Positions 4,989-21,669 of a DNA stretch of 51,154 nucleotides are shown in pieces; within the stretch, counting starts at the first letter, position 1; each line of letters opens with the position of its first letter. A program made the translations under genes and the position numbers. The stretch is from a virus, in IMG/VR virus record IMGVR_UViG_3300010401_000012, positions 1-51,154 of that record, one strand, 5' to 3'. The notes beneath the pieces are model-generated. The model had not been told where the DNA came from. It saw nothing but the letters and a program-made list of their open reading frames with translations, and did no database searches.

Positions 4989-5528
4989 ATGTGGAGTTCT
5001 AAGCAAGCACCTGAAGTCACTGCGCTATTGATCGACGGTGCCAACGCATACCATAGTAGTCAGAAGGTCGGGTATATGCTCGACTACAAGCGCATTCGGG
5101 CTTACTTCAGGCCACAGCAGGCGTTGTACTTCACTGCTCTGCCTGATCGTGCCGCCGGTGAGAACAACATCCACAAGATGATCGATCTCATCAACTACAA
5201 CGGCTACGTCGTCATCCAGAAGCCGATGCAGACGTACGACAACGGCTCTGAGGGCGTAAAGACCAAGGGCAACATGGATGTCGAGCTGGCTGTTCACATC
5301 ATGAAGTGTGCCCGATGGGCCAACCACATCGTTCTCTTCAGTGGGGATGGTGACTTCCGGTTGGCTGTCGAGGACGCACAGCAGCAGGGCGTGCGTGTCA
5401 CTGTGGTATCAGCCTTGAAGGTCTCGGGTTCCCCGATGATCTCGGATGTACTGCGACGGCAGGCCAATGACTTCCTTGACCTTGCTGACCCGAGGATCAA
5501 GGCAGACTTCGAGATGACCAGACTATAG
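4989..5528 (+). CDS. NYN/PIN-like domain protein (LabA/DUF88 type), putative RNase
   Basis: The motifs of the NYN family are present in order: ALLIDGANAY with D16 and N19, KGNMDVELAV with D97, and FSGDGDF with D120 and D122. These acidic residues form the metal site of PIN-like endoribonucleases. The family is known to cut RNA in several systems; here degradation or processing of host or phage RNA is inferred, not shown. At 179 residues it is a complete single-domain protein. The ATG at 4989 follows CGGAGAATACA. It sits in the early region next to small unknown genes, which fits a host-takeover or counter-defence role. Confidence 0.85.
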   Translation: MWSSKQAPEVTALLIDGANAYHSSQKVGYMLDYKRIRAYFRPQQALYFTALPDRAAGENNIHKMIDLINYNGYVVIQKPMQTYDNGSEGVKTKGNMDVELAVHIMKCARWANHIVLFSGDGDFRLAVEDAQQQGVRVTVVSALKVSGSPMISDVLRRQANDFLDLADPRIKADFEMTRL

Positions 5529-15791: not shown

Positions 15792-15959
15792 ATGACTAAT
15801 TACGTTACTCAATACGACTACAGCATCCGCACTGGTGGAACGATGACGTTCGATGCGGATAGCAAAGACGAAGCCGAAGAGATGGCGAAGGAATACATCG
15901 CTGAGACTTACCCCGAAGCTTTTGATATCGAGGTTGTAGAAGTGGATGCTGTCCTCTGA
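15792..15959 (+). CDS. small acidic hypothetical protein (55 aa)
   Basis: It starts MTNYVTQYDYSIRTGGTMTF, then an acidic helix (DSKDEAEEMAKEYIAE). AGGAG at 15782-15786 supports the ATG at 15792 over an upstream in-frame TTG inside the polymerase gene. The stop overlaps the next start (TGATG). Possibly an accessory factor for its polymerase/SSB neighbours, but unproven. Confidence 0.65.
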   Translation: MTNYVTQYDYSIRTGGTMTFDADSKDEAEEMAKEYIAETYPEAFDIEVVEVDAVL

Positions 15960-16471
15960 TGGCACAGTTCTCAAAGACAACCCACGAGAGTGTCAAAGGT
16001 AAGTGTAAGTGGGCACACGTCACACGGCTTAATCGATACGACGCATGGAGTATTGAACTTTGGCCTATACCCGAAGACCTTGAACGTATCCGTGAATGGC
16101 AAGCCAAAGGCTTGAAGAACACGATGCGCAAGGACGAGGAAGGCTATAATATTCGGTTCAAACGTGAGCCGACGAAGAAAATTACTCTACGTACAGGTGA
16201 GATTAAACACCTGACGTTCGCACCTCCCTCTGTCGCCATGGCCGATGGGTCACCCCTCCCTCAAGGTGTATCCATCGGCAATGGTAGTGACGTCACAGTC
16301 CTACTGGAAGTCTATACTCACGGTACACCTGGTGGTGGACAAGCAGTAGCGTGTCGTCTCGAAGGAGTGCGGGTAGATAACCTCGTACCGTTTGATCCTT
16401 CTCGTGATTACACTCCTGAAGAAAAAGAAAAGGTAGACGCACTGACGTCTCAACCGGAGCATATATTCTAA
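15959..16471 (+). CDS. probable phage single-stranded DNA-binding protein
   Basis: The protein has the layout of phage OB-fold SSBs: an aromatic N-terminal part (RLNRYDAWSIELWP), a central core IGNGSDVTVLLEVYTHG (about 111-127), then ACRLEGVRVDNLVPFDP and an acidic, Pro/Glu-rich C-terminus. The IGNGS and G-V-x-V-x-x-L-V-x-F signature is typical of phage ssDNA-binding proteins of the gp2.5/Enc34 kind. It directly follows the polymerase module. Binding of ssDNA at the fork is inferred. At 170 residues it has a reasonable family length. Confidence 0.7.
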   Translation: MAQFSKTTHESVKGKCKWAHVTRLNRYDAWSIELWPIPEDLERIREWQAKGLKNTMRKDEEGYNIRFKREPTKKITLRTGEIKHLTFAPPSVAMADGSPLPQGVSIGNGSDVTVLLEVYTHGTPGGGQAVACRLEGVRVDNLVPFDPSRDYTPEEKEKVDALTSQPEHIF

Positions 16472-16683
16472 TGGCTATGGATAATCTTAACATCTCTAAT
16501 GAAGATGTATGGAAGCGTGTCGATAACATCGGCAGTACTCGTTTCATAAATATGGTTGACGGAACTACACGGGATGTCCCGTGGGGTACCCTCGACTACT
16601 GGAATATCTTCGTTGGTAATATCCTTACCTTTGCAATCCTCGGTGGGTTTGCTTGGATTGGTATTCACTACTTGACTAAATAA
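16471..16683 (+). CDS. small tail-anchored membrane protein (70 aa)
   Basis: The soluble N-terminal half (MAMDNLNISNEDVWKRVDNI) is followed by a C-terminal transmembrane helix (NILTFAILGGFAWIGIHYL). The ATG overlaps the last base of the SSB stop. It is the last gene before the 2.3 kb non-coding locus. Function unknown. Confidence 0.65.
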   Translation: MAMDNLNISNEDVWKRVDNIGSTRFINMVDGTTRDVPWGTLDYWNIFVGNILTFAILGGFAWIGIHYLTK

Positions 16684-17027
16684 GCGGCTGTTGCGCCCGC
16701 ACCTTGGCAGTAGGGTAGGTTAAACTGCCATTATTCAATCTAGCCAACTCCGATGCATATGCCGGAGCACTGGACAAGAGGGTGAGAGGCCCTCCCAATA
16801 CAGTAGTGCTTTGAGGCGGTGACAAGCCATAACCTCATCGATCTCCACAGGGAGCCGTGCCAGTCGGCTGCTTATCCGTAAGTGAGAGCCACTACGAAAT
16901 TCTTGAACGTAGCTCAACAGCAAGAGCCCCGACTTGTATAGTCTTGTGGACCCGATTAAAGACGGTCGTAATTCAAGGTGGGAAACCTCGGGAGATCAGG
17001 GTTAAAGTCCCTGCGTTCAGCCTTAGT

Positions 17028-17085
17028 TGATACTGAAGAGCAAATCGTCTGAGCATGGCTCTATGGGTTGACGCCCCCAGTATCA
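17028..17085 (+). other. closed multi-stem RNA domain inside the ncRNA locus
   Basis: TGATACTG (17028-17035) pairs with CAGTATCA (17078-17085) over eight bases and encloses AGAGC/GCTCT and GGG/CCC stems. A closing helix around smaller helices is a feature of folded RNA rather than chance repeats. Confidence 0.6.
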
Positions 17086-18425
17086 TGCCTCCTGCCTTCC
17101 AACGCAGTAGAGGTGAAGAAACCGTACAGGTAAAACTGGCGGGAAGAGACCGCAGCCGGGTTTGGAGTAAGGTCCACGTCTGAGGTGAATTCCTGATCGG
17201 GAACCGTGATCCGTAGGTGGAAGCGTACAACCGCATGCCGTCTAGGCTGCTCTGTGATCAGGCGTGGAGTAATCGCACGAGGAACATGCCACGTTAATCC
17301 GTCCTCCGCTACGTACTTACGAAAGCATCTGAAGGCTGTCGTAGCCTCGGTGGCCCGCGTAAGCCGTCACCAAAACAACGTAGATGTCGGTAGGGACACT
17401 CCGCAAGGAGGCACGTATAATCCGTGCGTTTAAACAGGCGACCTCTCAAAGTAAGATGCGAGACAGGACATTGAGGGACTGTCGTTGTAAGCACACCGCT
17501 CTCATAAGGCGGTATATAAAATGCATGGCTCGCAGATCGGCCAAGCGGTGTCGTAGTGCAGCGGGTGGTTGTGGACCATCGCAGCATAGGGGTTGTCTGG
17601 AATGGCAGCTCTCGAAGAGCACTGACCTACATGGTAGGTACACACCAAGGATGCTAAGCAAGACTTCTAACGCGGACCCATTCTTGAGTGGCAATCCGTA
17701 GTACACCGTGACGCCACGGGGTTACAAGGTAGCATAGATACCGACGATCTTTCTGACCGAAATGAGGGAGCGTGACCCTCGCCCGTGGGACGGGTTTCAT
17801 GAAGATAGTAGGTTGGACGGCAAGAAGCCCGGTTCGATGCCGGGGTAACAGGTGAAACTTCTTGACGACGTATGGATCGCTGAAGGTCGGGGTGGGATGC
17901 AATCGGGGTGCAACCCGATTTAGGAAGCGTCGAGCACTTCCCTTGTATGAGTCGCCTACAGCCCGGGCATGAAGTCGCTATAAAGCCGATGCATCAAAAA
18001 CCAGGGTATGCTCAGCCGTATCTGAGCTACAGCTTGATCGTCCACTGACGCTGGTTGGTAGGATGTAACCGTAGGGCCTGAGGTCACCGGACCGTTTAGG
18101 AACTCTGGAGCTGGAAGTCCATTTACCAAGACATGCTTCTGCAGCATTGAGGACTGTTCGCTAGGTTCTGTAGTGCTCAATCGTAGACGTAGCTTGGTCT
18201 AGGTTTAGGGTTCCCTATAGCCCAAACCGTAGGACGTAGAGCAGTGTATTGATTGTCGACACTTGCTTAGTAGGAAGAATGGTTTGGATGGTTACGACCG
18301 TACCCGCTGTGCCTGACTGTAAATCAGGTCCCTATTGGGGGGCGTGTTAGCCGTAGTGTACGACGCTGTAGTGGCCCGTATAATAGGCTTTCCTTAGCAG
18401 CACATTAAAGTAGGTCAAGAGAACA

Positions 18426-18467
18426 CCCGACAGTCCATCGGGAGGTTCTAATCCTCCGACTCGGAGG
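18426..18467 (+). other. mutually exclusive hairpins in the ncRNA locus
   Basis: CCCGA-CAGTCCA-TCGGG (18426-18442) overlaps GGAGG-TTCTAAT-CCTCC (18441-18457, loop resembling a tRNA T-loop), which in turn competes with CCTCCG-ACT-CGGAGG (18453-18467). The shared CCTCC can pair either way, so two alternative folds are possible. Confidence 0.55.
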
Positions 18468-18635
18468 GGTACCGCGGTAAGAACAACTGTGGCGAAGCAC
18501 CGCCGGTCTAGGTAGGCAGCGTATAGCAATGCCGTAGCCGAGAGAGACTGACAAGGATTGACCCAGTGAGACAGCGTTCACAACGGTACCAAACAGACAA
18601 CAGGGTTAACGACCCATTGTTTGCAACAGACTTGA

Positions 18636-18666
18636 GCCAGCGTAGCTGGCAGGCAACTTCGTTGCC
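18636..18666 (+). repeat. two adjacent perfect six-pair triloop hairpins
   Basis: GCCAGC-GTA-GCTGGC is followed after one base by GGCAAC-TTC-GTTGCC. Similar triloop hairpins occur at 17608, 17625, 13630 and 13648, suggesting a recurrent structural element. Confidence 0.7.
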
Positions 18667-18963
18667 GAACTAACATAAGCCAGAGGTCGTAGAGGTACGC
18701 CCTGAGCCGAATGAAGTCGTGGAACTCCGCATGGGGTGCAACTCCCTGGGATAAGAGCCGAGCATGTGGCTAGAGGGCCTTTACATGACCCTGACCGGAG
18801 CTGTAACGTAAACCTTCTTGTTAGCAAGTCCATGAGAATTCACCTAAAGCAGCGCCAGATTAGCGTTGAGCTATAAGAAGGGGATGTACCTTCTTAGATC
18901 AGAGAGAGGCCCGCAGGCAACACATCTCACCACAGAATGCACTCTGACAGAGGAGAGCACACA

Positions 18964-19029
18964 ATGTGTGTCATGATCACGATGCTCAAGATGTTGAAAT
19001 ACCTCCAGCGTTGCCGGGAACCACCTTAA
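18964..19029 (+). CDS. 21-residue peptide gene
   Basis: The peptide begins MCVMITMLKMLKYLQRCREPP and is hydrophobic and basic, possibly amphipathic. The ATG is preceded at ideal spacing by ACAGAGGA (18947-18954), the octamer found before four confident genes of this phage, so real translation is likely. It lies at the 3' edge of the ncRNA locus and just before a strong hairpin. It could be a leader peptide or a small membrane-active peptide. Confidence 0.55.
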   Translation: MCVMITMLKMLKYLQRCREPP

Positions 19030-19048
19030 GAATTTCCCGGGGTGGGAC
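19012..19048 (+). terminator. hairpin with alternative pairing after the 21-aa peptide
   Basis: CCGGGAA pairs with TTCCCGG, while CCACC within its loop can pair instead with GGTGG just downstream. The competing stems overlap the peptide's stop codon, as in attenuators. No T-run follows. Further small stems (GTCAG/CTGAC near 19069-19085, CCCGG/CCGGG near 19135-19156) fill the rest of the gap up to 19205. Confidence 0.5.
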
Positions 19049-19205
19049 GTAGGAACACCAAAGCAGTAGAGTCAGTTCTGCTGACGGCTAGTTAAATAGC
19101 TTGAAAGCTTACGAGTGTTCTAGTCCCACAATACCCGGATCGAATGGGAACCGGGGTGGCCCCTACTGGATGAGCGCCCCGTAATCCCCCATAAAGGAGA
19201 CGACC

Positions 19206-19490
19206 ATGAGTAAACTCGACAAGATTTTGGTCGAGGCCCTGCTCTTCAAGGATAAGCCTCCGACCGAAAAGAAATCCAAGAAAGCCATCACGATGAAGGA
19301 GTACATCAAGTTCAAGAAAGAATTTGATGAATTCCAGAAGTTGCTGAAGGAAGAAGCCGACAAGAACAAGCCGAAGGACGACAAGAAGAAAGACGAGCTG
19401 ACATTCTGGCAGAAGACTGCGCTCCTCCACATCGGTGCGCTCGGTTACTTCGCCACGTTGGCCTTGTTGTTCAGGCTGACATTCCACTAA
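19206..19490 (+). CDS. lysine-rich protein with C-terminal membrane helix (94 aa)
   Basis: The N-terminal two thirds is a highly charged helix (MSKLDKILVEALLFKDKPPT, then KK/EE-rich), probably coiled coil. The end is hydrophobic (ALLHIGALGYFATLALLFRL), giving a tail anchor. AAAGGAGACGACC precedes the ATG. Codon use is GC-rich and biased as in other putative high-expression genes. Function unknown. Confidence 0.7.
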   Translation: MSKLDKILVEALLFKDKPPTEKKSKKAITMKEYIKFKKEFDEFQKLLKEEADKNKPKDDKKKDELTFWQKTALLHIGALGYFATLALLFRLTFH

Positions 19491-19560: not shown

Positions 19561-19920
19561 ATGACTGATAAATACTATAATAAGAACGGTGATGTAGCCG
19601 TCTTGATCTCCAAAGATTATGGTGGGGGTTGGAGTACGTGGAATTCTGATTACGCAGAAGAGATGGTCTTCGATAAGGATATCGTTAAGATCATACTTGA
19701 CAATCCTATTAGACCTGAAACAATTCTTCGTTTGAGGCCTGAAGACTACGATAAGGTTAAAGAGATTTGTAAGACTAAGTACCCTAAGGCATACGTAGAC
19801 GGTATGGATGACTGCTTAACTGTCGAATGGTTGAAACCCGGTACTGAATTTATGATCCATGAGTATGACGGATCAGAAAGTATTTGGACCGCAGAAGATA
19901 TAAAGAAATACATTGCCTAA
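19561..19920 (+). CDS. hypothetical protein (119 aa)
   Basis: An acidic alpha/beta protein beginning MTDKYYNKNGDVAVLISKDY with the pattern GGGWSTWNSDYAEEMVFD, where the last ~80 residues follow. Short proteins opening with a 'VAVLISK.YGGGWSTW' type segment occur in various phages without known function. AGGACATACA precedes the ATG. Its 3' end overlaps the exonuclease start. Confidence 0.65.
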   Translation: MTDKYYNKNGDVAVLISKDYGGGWSTWNSDYAEEMVFDKDIVKIILDNPIRPETILRLRPEDYDKVKEICKTKYPKAYVDGMDDCLTVEWLKPGTEFMIHEYDGSESIWTAEDIKKYIA

Positions 19921-20788
19921 TATTTCTACATTAATACAGGACATACATGAATTCCTCCATGGAAACAGAGCCGACGGAACAGGTTGGTTCAACGAAGAAG
20001 TGGCAAAGGCGTACTCCGAGGAGGTCACCGGACGACTTAGACAAAGCTTTGGCCCTAGAGAAACTAAAGCTACTCTACGTCTCAGCCAGATGGGTCCAAA
20101 GTGCCCGCGACAGTTGTGGTACAGTATACACCGGCCCGAGCTTGCCGAACCTCTCCCCCCTTCCGCCGTGGTCAAGTTCACTTATGGACACCTACTCGAA
20201 GCCCTCGTAATCTCGTGGGCTAAAGCTGCTGGACACGAAGTCACAGGAGAGCAAGATGAACTGGTTGTTGACGGGGTCAAAGGTCACCGAGATTGCGTTA
20301 TCGATGGGTGTCTTGTTGATGTTAAGTCCTGTAGCAGTATTGCATTTCGAAAAATCAAAGATGGACTTCTGGCCCAGAGTGATGATTTTGGGTATCTCGA
20401 TCAACTTGATGGCTATCTTGTGGGCTCACGTAATGATACTCTTGTACGGGTTAAGGATCGAGGATATATTCTAGCCGTCGATAAACAACTAGGACACTTA
20501 GCACTCTATGAACACATTGGACGACCAGCTCAAATACACAATAGGATTAGCGAATATAAATCAATTGTGGATAGACTTGAGCCACCCCCTTGCGGATGCC
20601 ATACGGTCCCCGACGGTGCAAGTGGAAACATTAAACTTGATGTACGAGCGAGCTACAGCCCTTACAAATGGTGTTGCTTCCCTCATCTCAGATGTTTCGT
20701 CTACGCCAAAGGACCAGTCTACTTAACCAAAGTAGTTAGGAAACCAGATGTCATTGAAATTAATCAACAAGGTCAAGTCGTATATTGA
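19913..20788 (+). CDS. Cas4/RecB-like PD-(D/E)XK exonuclease
   Basis: Motifs of a RecB-type nuclease are visible: E96 in GHLLEALV, D127 in GHRDC, then D136-V-K138 in GCLVDVKSC. A cysteine at C64 (KCPRQLWY) plus C-terminal cysteines (CGC, CC-x4-C) match the Fe-S layout of Cas4/AddB-type nucleases. In T7-like replication modules an exonuclease degrades host DNA and removes primers, which is the inferred role. The TTG start at 19913 overlaps the previous stop and has a weak ribosome-binding site; a GTG near 20000 would lose the N-terminal helix. Confidence 0.8.
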   Translation: MPNISTLIQDIHEFLHGNRADGTGWFNEEVAKAYSEEVTGRLRQSFGPRETKATLRLSQMGPKCPRQLWYSIHRPELAEPLPPSAVVKFTYGHLLEALVISWAKAAGHEVTGEQDELVVDGVKGHRDCVIDGCLVDVKSCSSIAFRKIKDGLLAQSDDFGYLDQLDGYLVGSRNDTLVRVKDRGYILAVDKQLGHLALYEHIGRPAQIHNRISEYKSIVDRLEPPPCGCHTVPDGASGNIKLDVRASYSPYKWCCFPHLRCFVYAKGPVYLTKVVRKPDVIEINQQGQVVY

Positions 20789-21083: not shown

Positions 21084-21275
21084 ATGAACGCAGAATATCA
21101 GATCAAGACGGCCGACAATGGTTATCTCGTCCAGCGCGTCATCGAAGTCGAAGTCGAGAACACTCCGGATGCTCCTTTCAAGGACCCTTATGAGCGCTCG
21201 ATCTTCGTGTTCGCCGATTGGGCGGGCGTGATCGCATGGCTGAATGGTAATGAGCCTGCCAAGAAGGCTGCCTAA
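21084..21275 (+). CDS. small acidic hypothetical protein (63 aa)
   Basis: It starts MNAEYQIKTADNGYLVQRVI and has the sequence FVFADWAGVIAWLNG, a pattern seen in short phage proteins with strand-strand-helix folds. AGAAAGAAAAACA precedes the ATG. It is strongly codon-biased. First gene after the 20997 promoter. Confidence 0.7.
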   Translation: MNAEYQIKTADNGYLVQRVIEVEVENTPDAPFKDPYERSIFVFADWAGVIAWLNGNEPAKKAA

Positions 21276-21669
21276 ATCCTCTGTTGCCCCCTCGGGATTA
21301 ACCCCCCGAGGCCGGCATCTTCTTAAGAAATATGGGATAACAGAAGAACAATATGCTCTACTATATACTCAACAGAACGGAAGTTGCTACGTCTGTGGAA
21401 GACATTCTGATGAATTCAAATCCAGACTTGCAATCGATCACGATCACGAGACTGGGGAAATCAGAGGACTTCTGTGTTTCTTTTGTAATAGATACGTTAT
21501 CGGACGCTACCGTAGACGAAGTATCGAAACGCTTAGACGCGCTGTTGATTACCTCGACAGAGAATACACAGGCTGGGTAGTACCACCGAAGGTAAAGAAG
21601 AGGAAGAAACATGGACGAAAGCAATCCTCTACAAGTAAAGTTGTTAGACGGATACGGCGATCCCCATGA
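21244..21669 (+). CDS. recombination endonuclease VII-like (His-Me finger)
   Basis: The T4 gp49-type zinc and catalytic core is present: C48-x2-C51, then AIDHDHETGEIRGLLC with D65-H66-D67-H68, and C78-x2-C81-N82. Such enzymes resolve branched and Holliday-junction DNA before packaging. A basic tail follows. At 141 residues it is a typical small phage form. The ATG at 21244 overlaps the previous gene by 32 bases; a second ATG lies two codons later. With the Cas4-like exonuclease it forms a DNA-processing cluster. Confidence 0.9.
   Translation: MVMSLPRRLPKSSVAPSGLTPRGRHLLKKYGITEEQYALLYTQQNGSCYVCGRHSDEFKSRLAIDHDHETGEIRGLLCFFCNRYVIGRYRRRSIETLRRAVDYLDREYTGWVVPPKVKKRKKHGRKQSSTSKVVRRIRRSP

Follow-up and report, generated by a model that had tools for sequence, protein, structure and literature searches.

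The window analyzed here, by which we mean the whole stretch of DNA at its full length, is a virus record of 51,154 bases carrying podovirus-type genes for a DNA polymerase, a primase-helicase, a head-tail adaptor, and a terminase. Among cultured phages, its polymerase is matched best by those of Roseobacter and Lentibacter phages (31-37% identity), the top match being CRP-5, which is classed in the Zobellviridae, Cobavirinae. A scan of IMG/VR with this polymerase gave 80 contigs: those of the near clade (L002-L057) are ~46-81% identical to the window in this protein and the others (L058-L081) stand apart at ~31%. Two further relatives (L083 and L084) were retrieved via a neighboring gene. The same polymerase found only 24-26% identical polymerases in a scan of bacterial genomes, and hence no host is assigned; judged from the kind of contigs, whose records give no habitat, the clade probably consists of soil phages. 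The phage also carries, at 4989-5528, a gene with an NYN (PIN-like RNase) domain (E=6.8e-27). A 141-aa ORF (p141, 21244-21669), HNH-endonuclease-like by eye, lies at varying places in the relatives and is likely a homing gene. In L053 (11188-11472) and L054 (from 11194), several hundred extra bases lengthen the polymerase match, and these regions contain similarity to p141, a pattern as expected of an intron or intein.

The locus of interest lies on the + strand between two genes that frame a syntenic block. Its left border is p170 (15959-16471), which keeps its place in nearly all relatives, matches phrog_112 (E=8e-5), and weakly resembles the Gp2.5 ssDNA-binding protein; its right border is a Cas4-domain exonuclease (19913-20788, + strand; phrog_1990, E=1.6e-28), placed by synteny as well. 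The interval between the SSB-like gene and the Cas4-type exonuclease is present in ~42 related contigs. The longest stretch without coding signal that it contains measures 0.6-2.9 kb, typically 1.4-2.2 kb, and in most of these contigs more than 1.2 kb at the same position is devoid of such signal. A DNA search of phage genomes gave no match, and scans of IMG/VR for two exact conserved strings returned only the close relatives already known.

An earlier note on this DNA, made from the letters of the window, had described 16690-18945 as gene-free, packed with hairpins, and probably one RNA of functional importance. The first of these claims holds. The upstream gene stops at 16683, there is no credible gene of normal size in 16684-18963, and the first real coding 3' of 16683 is a 21-codon micro-ORF (18964-19029), followed at 19206 by a 94-aa gene. 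That upstream gene, a 70-aa ORF (16471-16683) with a C-terminal hydrophobic stretch, directly adjoins the segment; it has no Pfam match and no similarity in any relative. The segment does contain ORFs of 60-105 aa on either strand, but a hexamer score trained on the genes of these phages flagged a single 42-aa frame. The equivalent region has no + strand ORF of at least 60 aa in L039 and one, of 65 aa, in L002, and the six-frame similarity of the segment to its relatives is spread across both strands and all frames. Since there is neither a kept frame of normal size nor a preferred frame of similarity, a protein-coding reading was rejected. The earlier note had held that conserved frames, or a lack of covariation, would speak against an RNA; no frame is kept and covariation is present, an outcome that favors RNA. 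Promoter and terminator scans gave nothing clearly above chance.

The extent of the conserved RNA follows from a four-sequence alignment and sliding-window z-scores, which place it on the + strand at 17023-19205 (~2.1 kb). DNA similarity to L002 begins at 17023 and runs at 67% over 2.1 kb, and L039 and L032 match in parts. At the 3' side, conserved structure reaches the ribosome-binding site of the next gene, and the end is not sharply defined. The coordinates first proposed were thus nearly right, except that the structure extends beyond 18945, as far as 19205, and that the lineage-specific stretch 16684-17022 stands apart. Within this stretch, 16684-16902 (+ strand) is structured and unmatched in the closest relatives.

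The alignment folded with RNAalifold comprised the window, L002, L039, and L084, which are 59-75% identical. Its consensus energy was -956 kcal/mol, compared with -624 to -679 (about -652) in five column-shuffled controls, and it contained 171 doubly compensated pairs against 77-95 in such controls. When 300-column windows were slid along it, z lay between -2.7 and -10 in 15 of 16, the one weak stretch being 17961-18222 (z -1.4). Folding of the single sequence gave z-scores of merely -2.7 and -2.6, so that the impression of a hairpin-packed segment has modest support from one sequence and very strong support from comparison. Two other lineage groups, aligned independently, showed the same excess of compensated pairs. 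The best-modeled domain (18415-18630, + strand; model R1) rests on covariation in 5 sequences: 27 of its 62 pairs are doubly compensated, a number reached by none of 500 shuffles, and sliding the partners by 1-3 columns left 0-6 such pairs. Model R1 also has matches at the corresponding position in L004 (E=1.5e-6) and in L003 (E=6e-5). A hairpin with the loop TTCTAAT that had been singled out earlier is not conserved; its stretch falls in a covarying helix (18420-18433/18436-18449). Reverse-complement folds score nearly as well as those of the + strand, as is expected of base-paired sequence, and the strand is therefore set by the T-arms and the micro-ORF described below. Compensatory changes throughout indicate that the structure is under selection, and these comparisons of sequence show that the segment functions as a folded RNA and not via a protein.

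The RNAs diverge so rapidly that those of distant lineages are not mutually alignable, and no single alignment can take in all lineages. Profiles and covariance models tie the window group to L003, L004, L027, and the L005-L010 group, and to no others. Beyond these, the unity of the class rests on position, on the T-arms, on the micro-ORF and its neighbor gene, and on a hairpin with the loop CAGATTA (18850-18868, + strand in the window) that is common to distant lineages and often lies shortly upstream of the micro-ORF.

Hairpins of the tRNA T-arm type recur in these regions. With five pairs and a TTCRANN loop, 60 were found on the + strand and 0 on the - strand over all relatives' regions, the expectation from shuffles being 0.1; a second T-loop type, TGNRANN, was counted 18 versus 0 times. 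In the window, the T-arm hairpin CCCGGTTCGATGCCGGG (17828-17844, + strand) sits within a covarying 8-bp helix (17818-17826/17859-17867), and doubly compensated pairs make up 4 of 5 in the hairpin and 7 of 8 in the helix. This is the TTCGATG hairpin of the earlier note, which is thereby supported; its TTAAAGT hairpin proved to be the T-arm of a more elaborate tRNA-like structure at 16903-17020 (+ strand), which only a pairing search detected. This structure has a 7-bp acceptor stem (TTGAACG/CGTTCAG) followed by TA and the D-arm GCTCAACAGCAAGAGC; at the anticodon position, a 5-bp stem (CCCGA/TCGGG) closes a large insert in place of an anticodon loop, and the T-arm CAGGGTTAAAGTCCCTG follows, with no CCA. 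The same layout recurs in L032 (13065-13159) and L029 (13969-14059). Among the three sequences the stems covary while the loops are almost identical, 11 of 17 pairs being doubly compensated and one pair being broken in one sequence. The structure ends at 17020, three bases 5' of the point where near-relative similarity begins, and from this placement it could be a processing signal.

ARAGORN detected no tRNA or tmRNA in the window, and neither did Rfam; ARAGORN's only call in the relatives' regions (L032, 13065-13160) was unassigned and had an odd anticodon loop. A cryptic tRNA array was considered and rejected, as the calls made under relaxed settings were inconsistent. Three loops that by eye resemble anticodon loops (at 17496, 17564, and 18312) are not conserved in that role. 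As a separate observation, L051 has at 2780-2880 an apparent circularly permuted tRNA, in which the 3' half of an anticodon stem, the T-arm GTAGGTTCGAGTCCTAC, and the acceptor strand CTCCCCC are followed by a loop, GGGGGAG, TA, the D-arm GCTCAGTGGTAGAGC, and CAAGC. Such a tRNA-shaped domain would be attached to the RNA via its anticodon stem. A second shared element of ~450 nt is placed 5' of the giant RNA after a ~175-aa gene lacking an assigned function (L017 13390-13830, L029 14620-15060, L049 13260-13700, L051 2610-3110, and L053 14170-14620). It consists of AGCGAAGTGAGAAAAC, a variable tRNA-like insert, and CTCAGG-TG-TGGCTGCTAT.

Two further members of the locus, which the earlier note missed, are the micro-ORF and the membrane-protein gene behind it. 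The micro-ORF (MCVMITMLKMLKYLQRCREPP-stop, 21 codons, 18964-19029, + strand) is preceded by the Shine-Dalgarno (SD) sequence GAGGAG (18950-18955, + strand) and ends in a Pro-Pro-stop that is kept in the relatives: all 42 contigs that reach this point, the window included, have it. Across these contigs, the micro-ORFs are SD-led, comprise 7-33 codons, and lie near the 3' end of the non-coding region. The peptide is hypervariable and, apart from Pro-Pro-stop, is conserved among near relatives alone. Pro-Pro ends 42 of the 354 SD-led short ORFs of these regions, the next commonest dipeptide ending 5. In the controls, the count was 1/235 on the other strand, 7/1872 in Markov sequences, 8/2338 elsewhere in the contigs, and 0/265 in long genes.

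The codons of this ending show where the constraint acts. The first Pro codon varies freely at its wobble position (A15 T15 C7 G6), which points to conservation of the amino acid itself. Of the second Pro codons, 35 of 43 are CCT (36% in genes), and 41 of 43 stops are TAA (42% in genes), a bias suggesting that part of the constraint acts on the RNA letters. Mimicry of 16S rRNA by CCTCCTTAA, acting as an anti-SD sequence, was considered and is weakened because the third base is free. A stem between the CCNCC letters and a downstream GGNGG was dismissed, an exact partner being present in just 5 of 42. In Escherichia coli, a C-terminal Pro-Pro disturbs termination and leads to ssrA tagging, with cleavage of the message either at the stop codon or 12 nt 3' of it (PMC3834316). 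Pro-Pro-stop is depleted in bacterial proteins (odds ratio 0.44), and one study ties its effect to clades without RF3 (PMC7246954). By analogy, ribosomes would stall at the Pro-Pro-stop of the micro-ORF in the unassigned host of these phages.

The gene that follows (19206-19490, + strand) encodes a 94-aa Lys-rich protein with a predicted C-terminal transmembrane helix, and a like gene stands after the micro-ORF in most relatives. For the protein of the window, Pfam gave nothing above cut-off and PHROG no match at all. In most contigs these proteins have 85-118 aa, with a variable and often Tyr/Pro-rich start, a Lys/Glu-rich middle, and a hydrophobic helix at the C-terminus; a simple hydropathy test found a membrane-helix-like C-terminal stretch in 36 of 39. 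Those picked in L026, L033, and L055 appear unrelated and were excluded. Neither the distant relatives (L058-L081) nor the marine cultured cobavirus CRP-5 have such a non-coding region or any T-arm, and their Pro-Pro-TAA strings are few and at chance level; the unit is thus most simply viewed as a gain of the near clade.

That a conserved giant RNA with a Pro-Pro-stop micro-ORF is really present in these phages we regard as nearly certain: it spans ~2.1 kb, has compensatory changes in four lineages, and occupies the same region in ~42 contigs, as was first supposed for one giant RNA of functional importance. The mechanism that we favor to account for it, plausible rather than probable when taken as a complete chain, is that of a giant RNA at whose 3' edge a Pro-Pro-stop parks a ribosome and behind which a membrane protein is made. 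The non-coding RNA would be made from the + strand as part of a transcription unit that includes the flanking genes, and would fold into many small domains with T-loop hairpins of the tRNA type. Near its 3' end, the strong SD site would load a ribosome, which would translate 7-33 codons that have nothing but Pro-Pro-stop generally in common; there, if the work in E. coli is a guide, termination would be very slow. Either the parked ribosome or the A-site mRNA cleavage that is on record for stalls of this kind may shield or define the 3' edge of the giant RNA. The stall or cleavage would separate this RNA from the downstream message, which would direct synthesis of the small Lys-rich, tail-anchored membrane protein, and this protein may bind the giant RNA at the membrane. 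A bolder version, in which a 2-kb RNA of tRNA-like modules captures a ribosome at the Pro-Pro-stop and is anchored to the host membrane by its own small protein, we hold to be doubtful; if true, a virus would here be seen for the first time to make a giant RNA particle that docks a ribosome and is bound to a membrane.

Conserved structure in the window persists 3' of the micro-ORF as far as the next gene, which is no less compatible with a leader of that gene than with the end of an RNA. The 3' region of the RNA, or the RNA as a whole, might then be a giant 5' leader of the membrane-protein gene, in which a stall at Pro-Pro-stop alters the local fold and frees the gene's ribosome-binding site, as in known arrest-peptide leaders; we consider this rather unlikely, though a serious contender. 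In the folded contigs, the micro-ORF precedes the gene by 32-227 nt. CCTCCTTAA and AAGGAG are complementary, and in the predicted folds of L006, L010, L048, and L049 the gene's SD sequence pairs with the Pro-Pro-stop letters and is freed by a ribosome placed there. Over the 38 contigs folded, a ribosome at the stop raised SD accessibility from 0.37 to 0.48; however, a control block 30 nt upstream gave 0.43, which is not significantly less (p=0.08), pairing of the SD with the stop region exceeds 0.3 in just 7 of 38, and the accessibility in the window is unchanged (0.62 vs 0.61). By this folding test, an SD-release switch at the downstream gene is not general, and a 2-kb fold far exceeds what such a switch needs. 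Because the gain is small, the control nearly equal, and the window unaffected, we treat the leader as a rival and not as the favorite.

The sequences of the RNA and of the micro-ORF evolve separately, as they would if two neighbors merely shared a transcript: an RNA in the manner of GOLLD and ROOL, possibly an RNA-only assembly, and an unrelated operon of leader peptide and membrane protein. GOLLD and ROOL are indeed phage RNAs that form homo-oligomeric cages (PMC12286853). Such a coincidence appears unlikely, given that RNA and micro-ORF are adjacent in 42 of 42 complete contigs while the surrounding genes come and go. It is also conceivable, but improbable, that an abundant RNA with strong start sites and Pro-Pro-stop endings, held at the membrane via the downstream protein, traps ribosomes or release factors of the host and thereby shifts its translation. 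Nothing of the peptide is conserved except its start signal and its stalling end, and ribosomes have been reported bound to GOLLD in pull-downs (PMC12286853); against this, one trap per 2-kb RNA would be inefficient and phage translation would be taxed too. Finally, the tRNA-type T-arms and the anticodon-like loops might recall the decayed remains of a tRNA array, or DNA that is otherwise degenerate and without function, an idea refuted by covariation throughout and left with practically no standing by a window that lacks any ARAGORN tRNA and by loops not kept in their role.

The favored reading, that of a giant RNA bounded by a parked ribosome, can be set beside known systems, of which GOLLD, ROOL, and OLE come nearest in manner by their size, phage origin, setting near tRNAs, or membrane-protein partner (PMC12286853). 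The window RNA alone would be a new class of a known kind, that of the large ornate phage RNAs, and a new class was among the options raised at the outset. Kinship with GOLLD or ROOL, another of these, finds no backing: at gathering cut-offs, Rfam covariance models, those of GOLLD and ROOL included, matched neither the window nor 15 relatives, and at E<=10 the window had two chance matches (MEG3_2 and serC), neither of them to GOLLD or ROOL. The OLE and group I and group II intron models were likewise unmatched in the window. The further suggestion of additional RNAs was partly right, because 16684-17022, with its lineage-specific part and tRNA-like structure, is separate. A search of open-licence papers brought up no description of such a unit of RNA and micro-ORF, and we know of no precedent for the invariable link to a Pro-Pro-stop micro-ORF with a tail-anchored membrane protein behind it. 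Termination stalling is usually an accident or a switch; this arrangement suggests a use of it in which it may serve to handle a non-coding RNA. By pointing to the ribosome and a membrane protein as two candidate partners, the arrangement makes the role of giant phage RNAs directly testable.

Like tmRNA, the unit has a tRNA-like domain together with a short reading frame within a single region of RNA; unlike in tmRNA, the frame has its own SD and start codon, no tmRNA is called, and the tRNA-like part lacks CCA in the window and is found in few lineages. The arrest-peptide leaders of the SecM, TnaC, and ErmCL type share with it a short peptide with stalling C-terminal residues near a regulated gene, and a short SD-led ORF with conserved stalling residues does stand 5' of a gene in all 42 complete contigs. 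Here, however, the peptide is otherwise hypervariable in sequence and length and is tied to a 2-kb folded RNA, and a switch is not generally predicted. Engineered YbeL-PP of E. coli is alike in that Pro-Pro-stop stalls termination. OLE with OapA is similarly a large RNA paired with a membrane protein. OLE is a bacterial RNA of about a third of the size of the window RNA; the candidate partner encoded beside the latter is a small Lys-rich protein with a predicted C-terminal transmembrane helix, a parallel that implies neither kinship with OapA nor RNA binding. ROOL is a large phage RNA of complex fold near tRNA islands, but has ~660 nt and no described micro-ORF, and its model finds no match here. 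GOLLD is likewise giant, ornate, and phage-borne, with no assigned function, a variable 5' part, and a frequent location near tRNAs. With its >800 nt (PMC12286853), GOLLD compares with ~2.1 kb for the window RNA, which is thus more than twice as large and which, unlike GOLLD, always has a Pro-Pro-stop micro-ORF at its 3' side and in most cases a membrane-protein gene as well.
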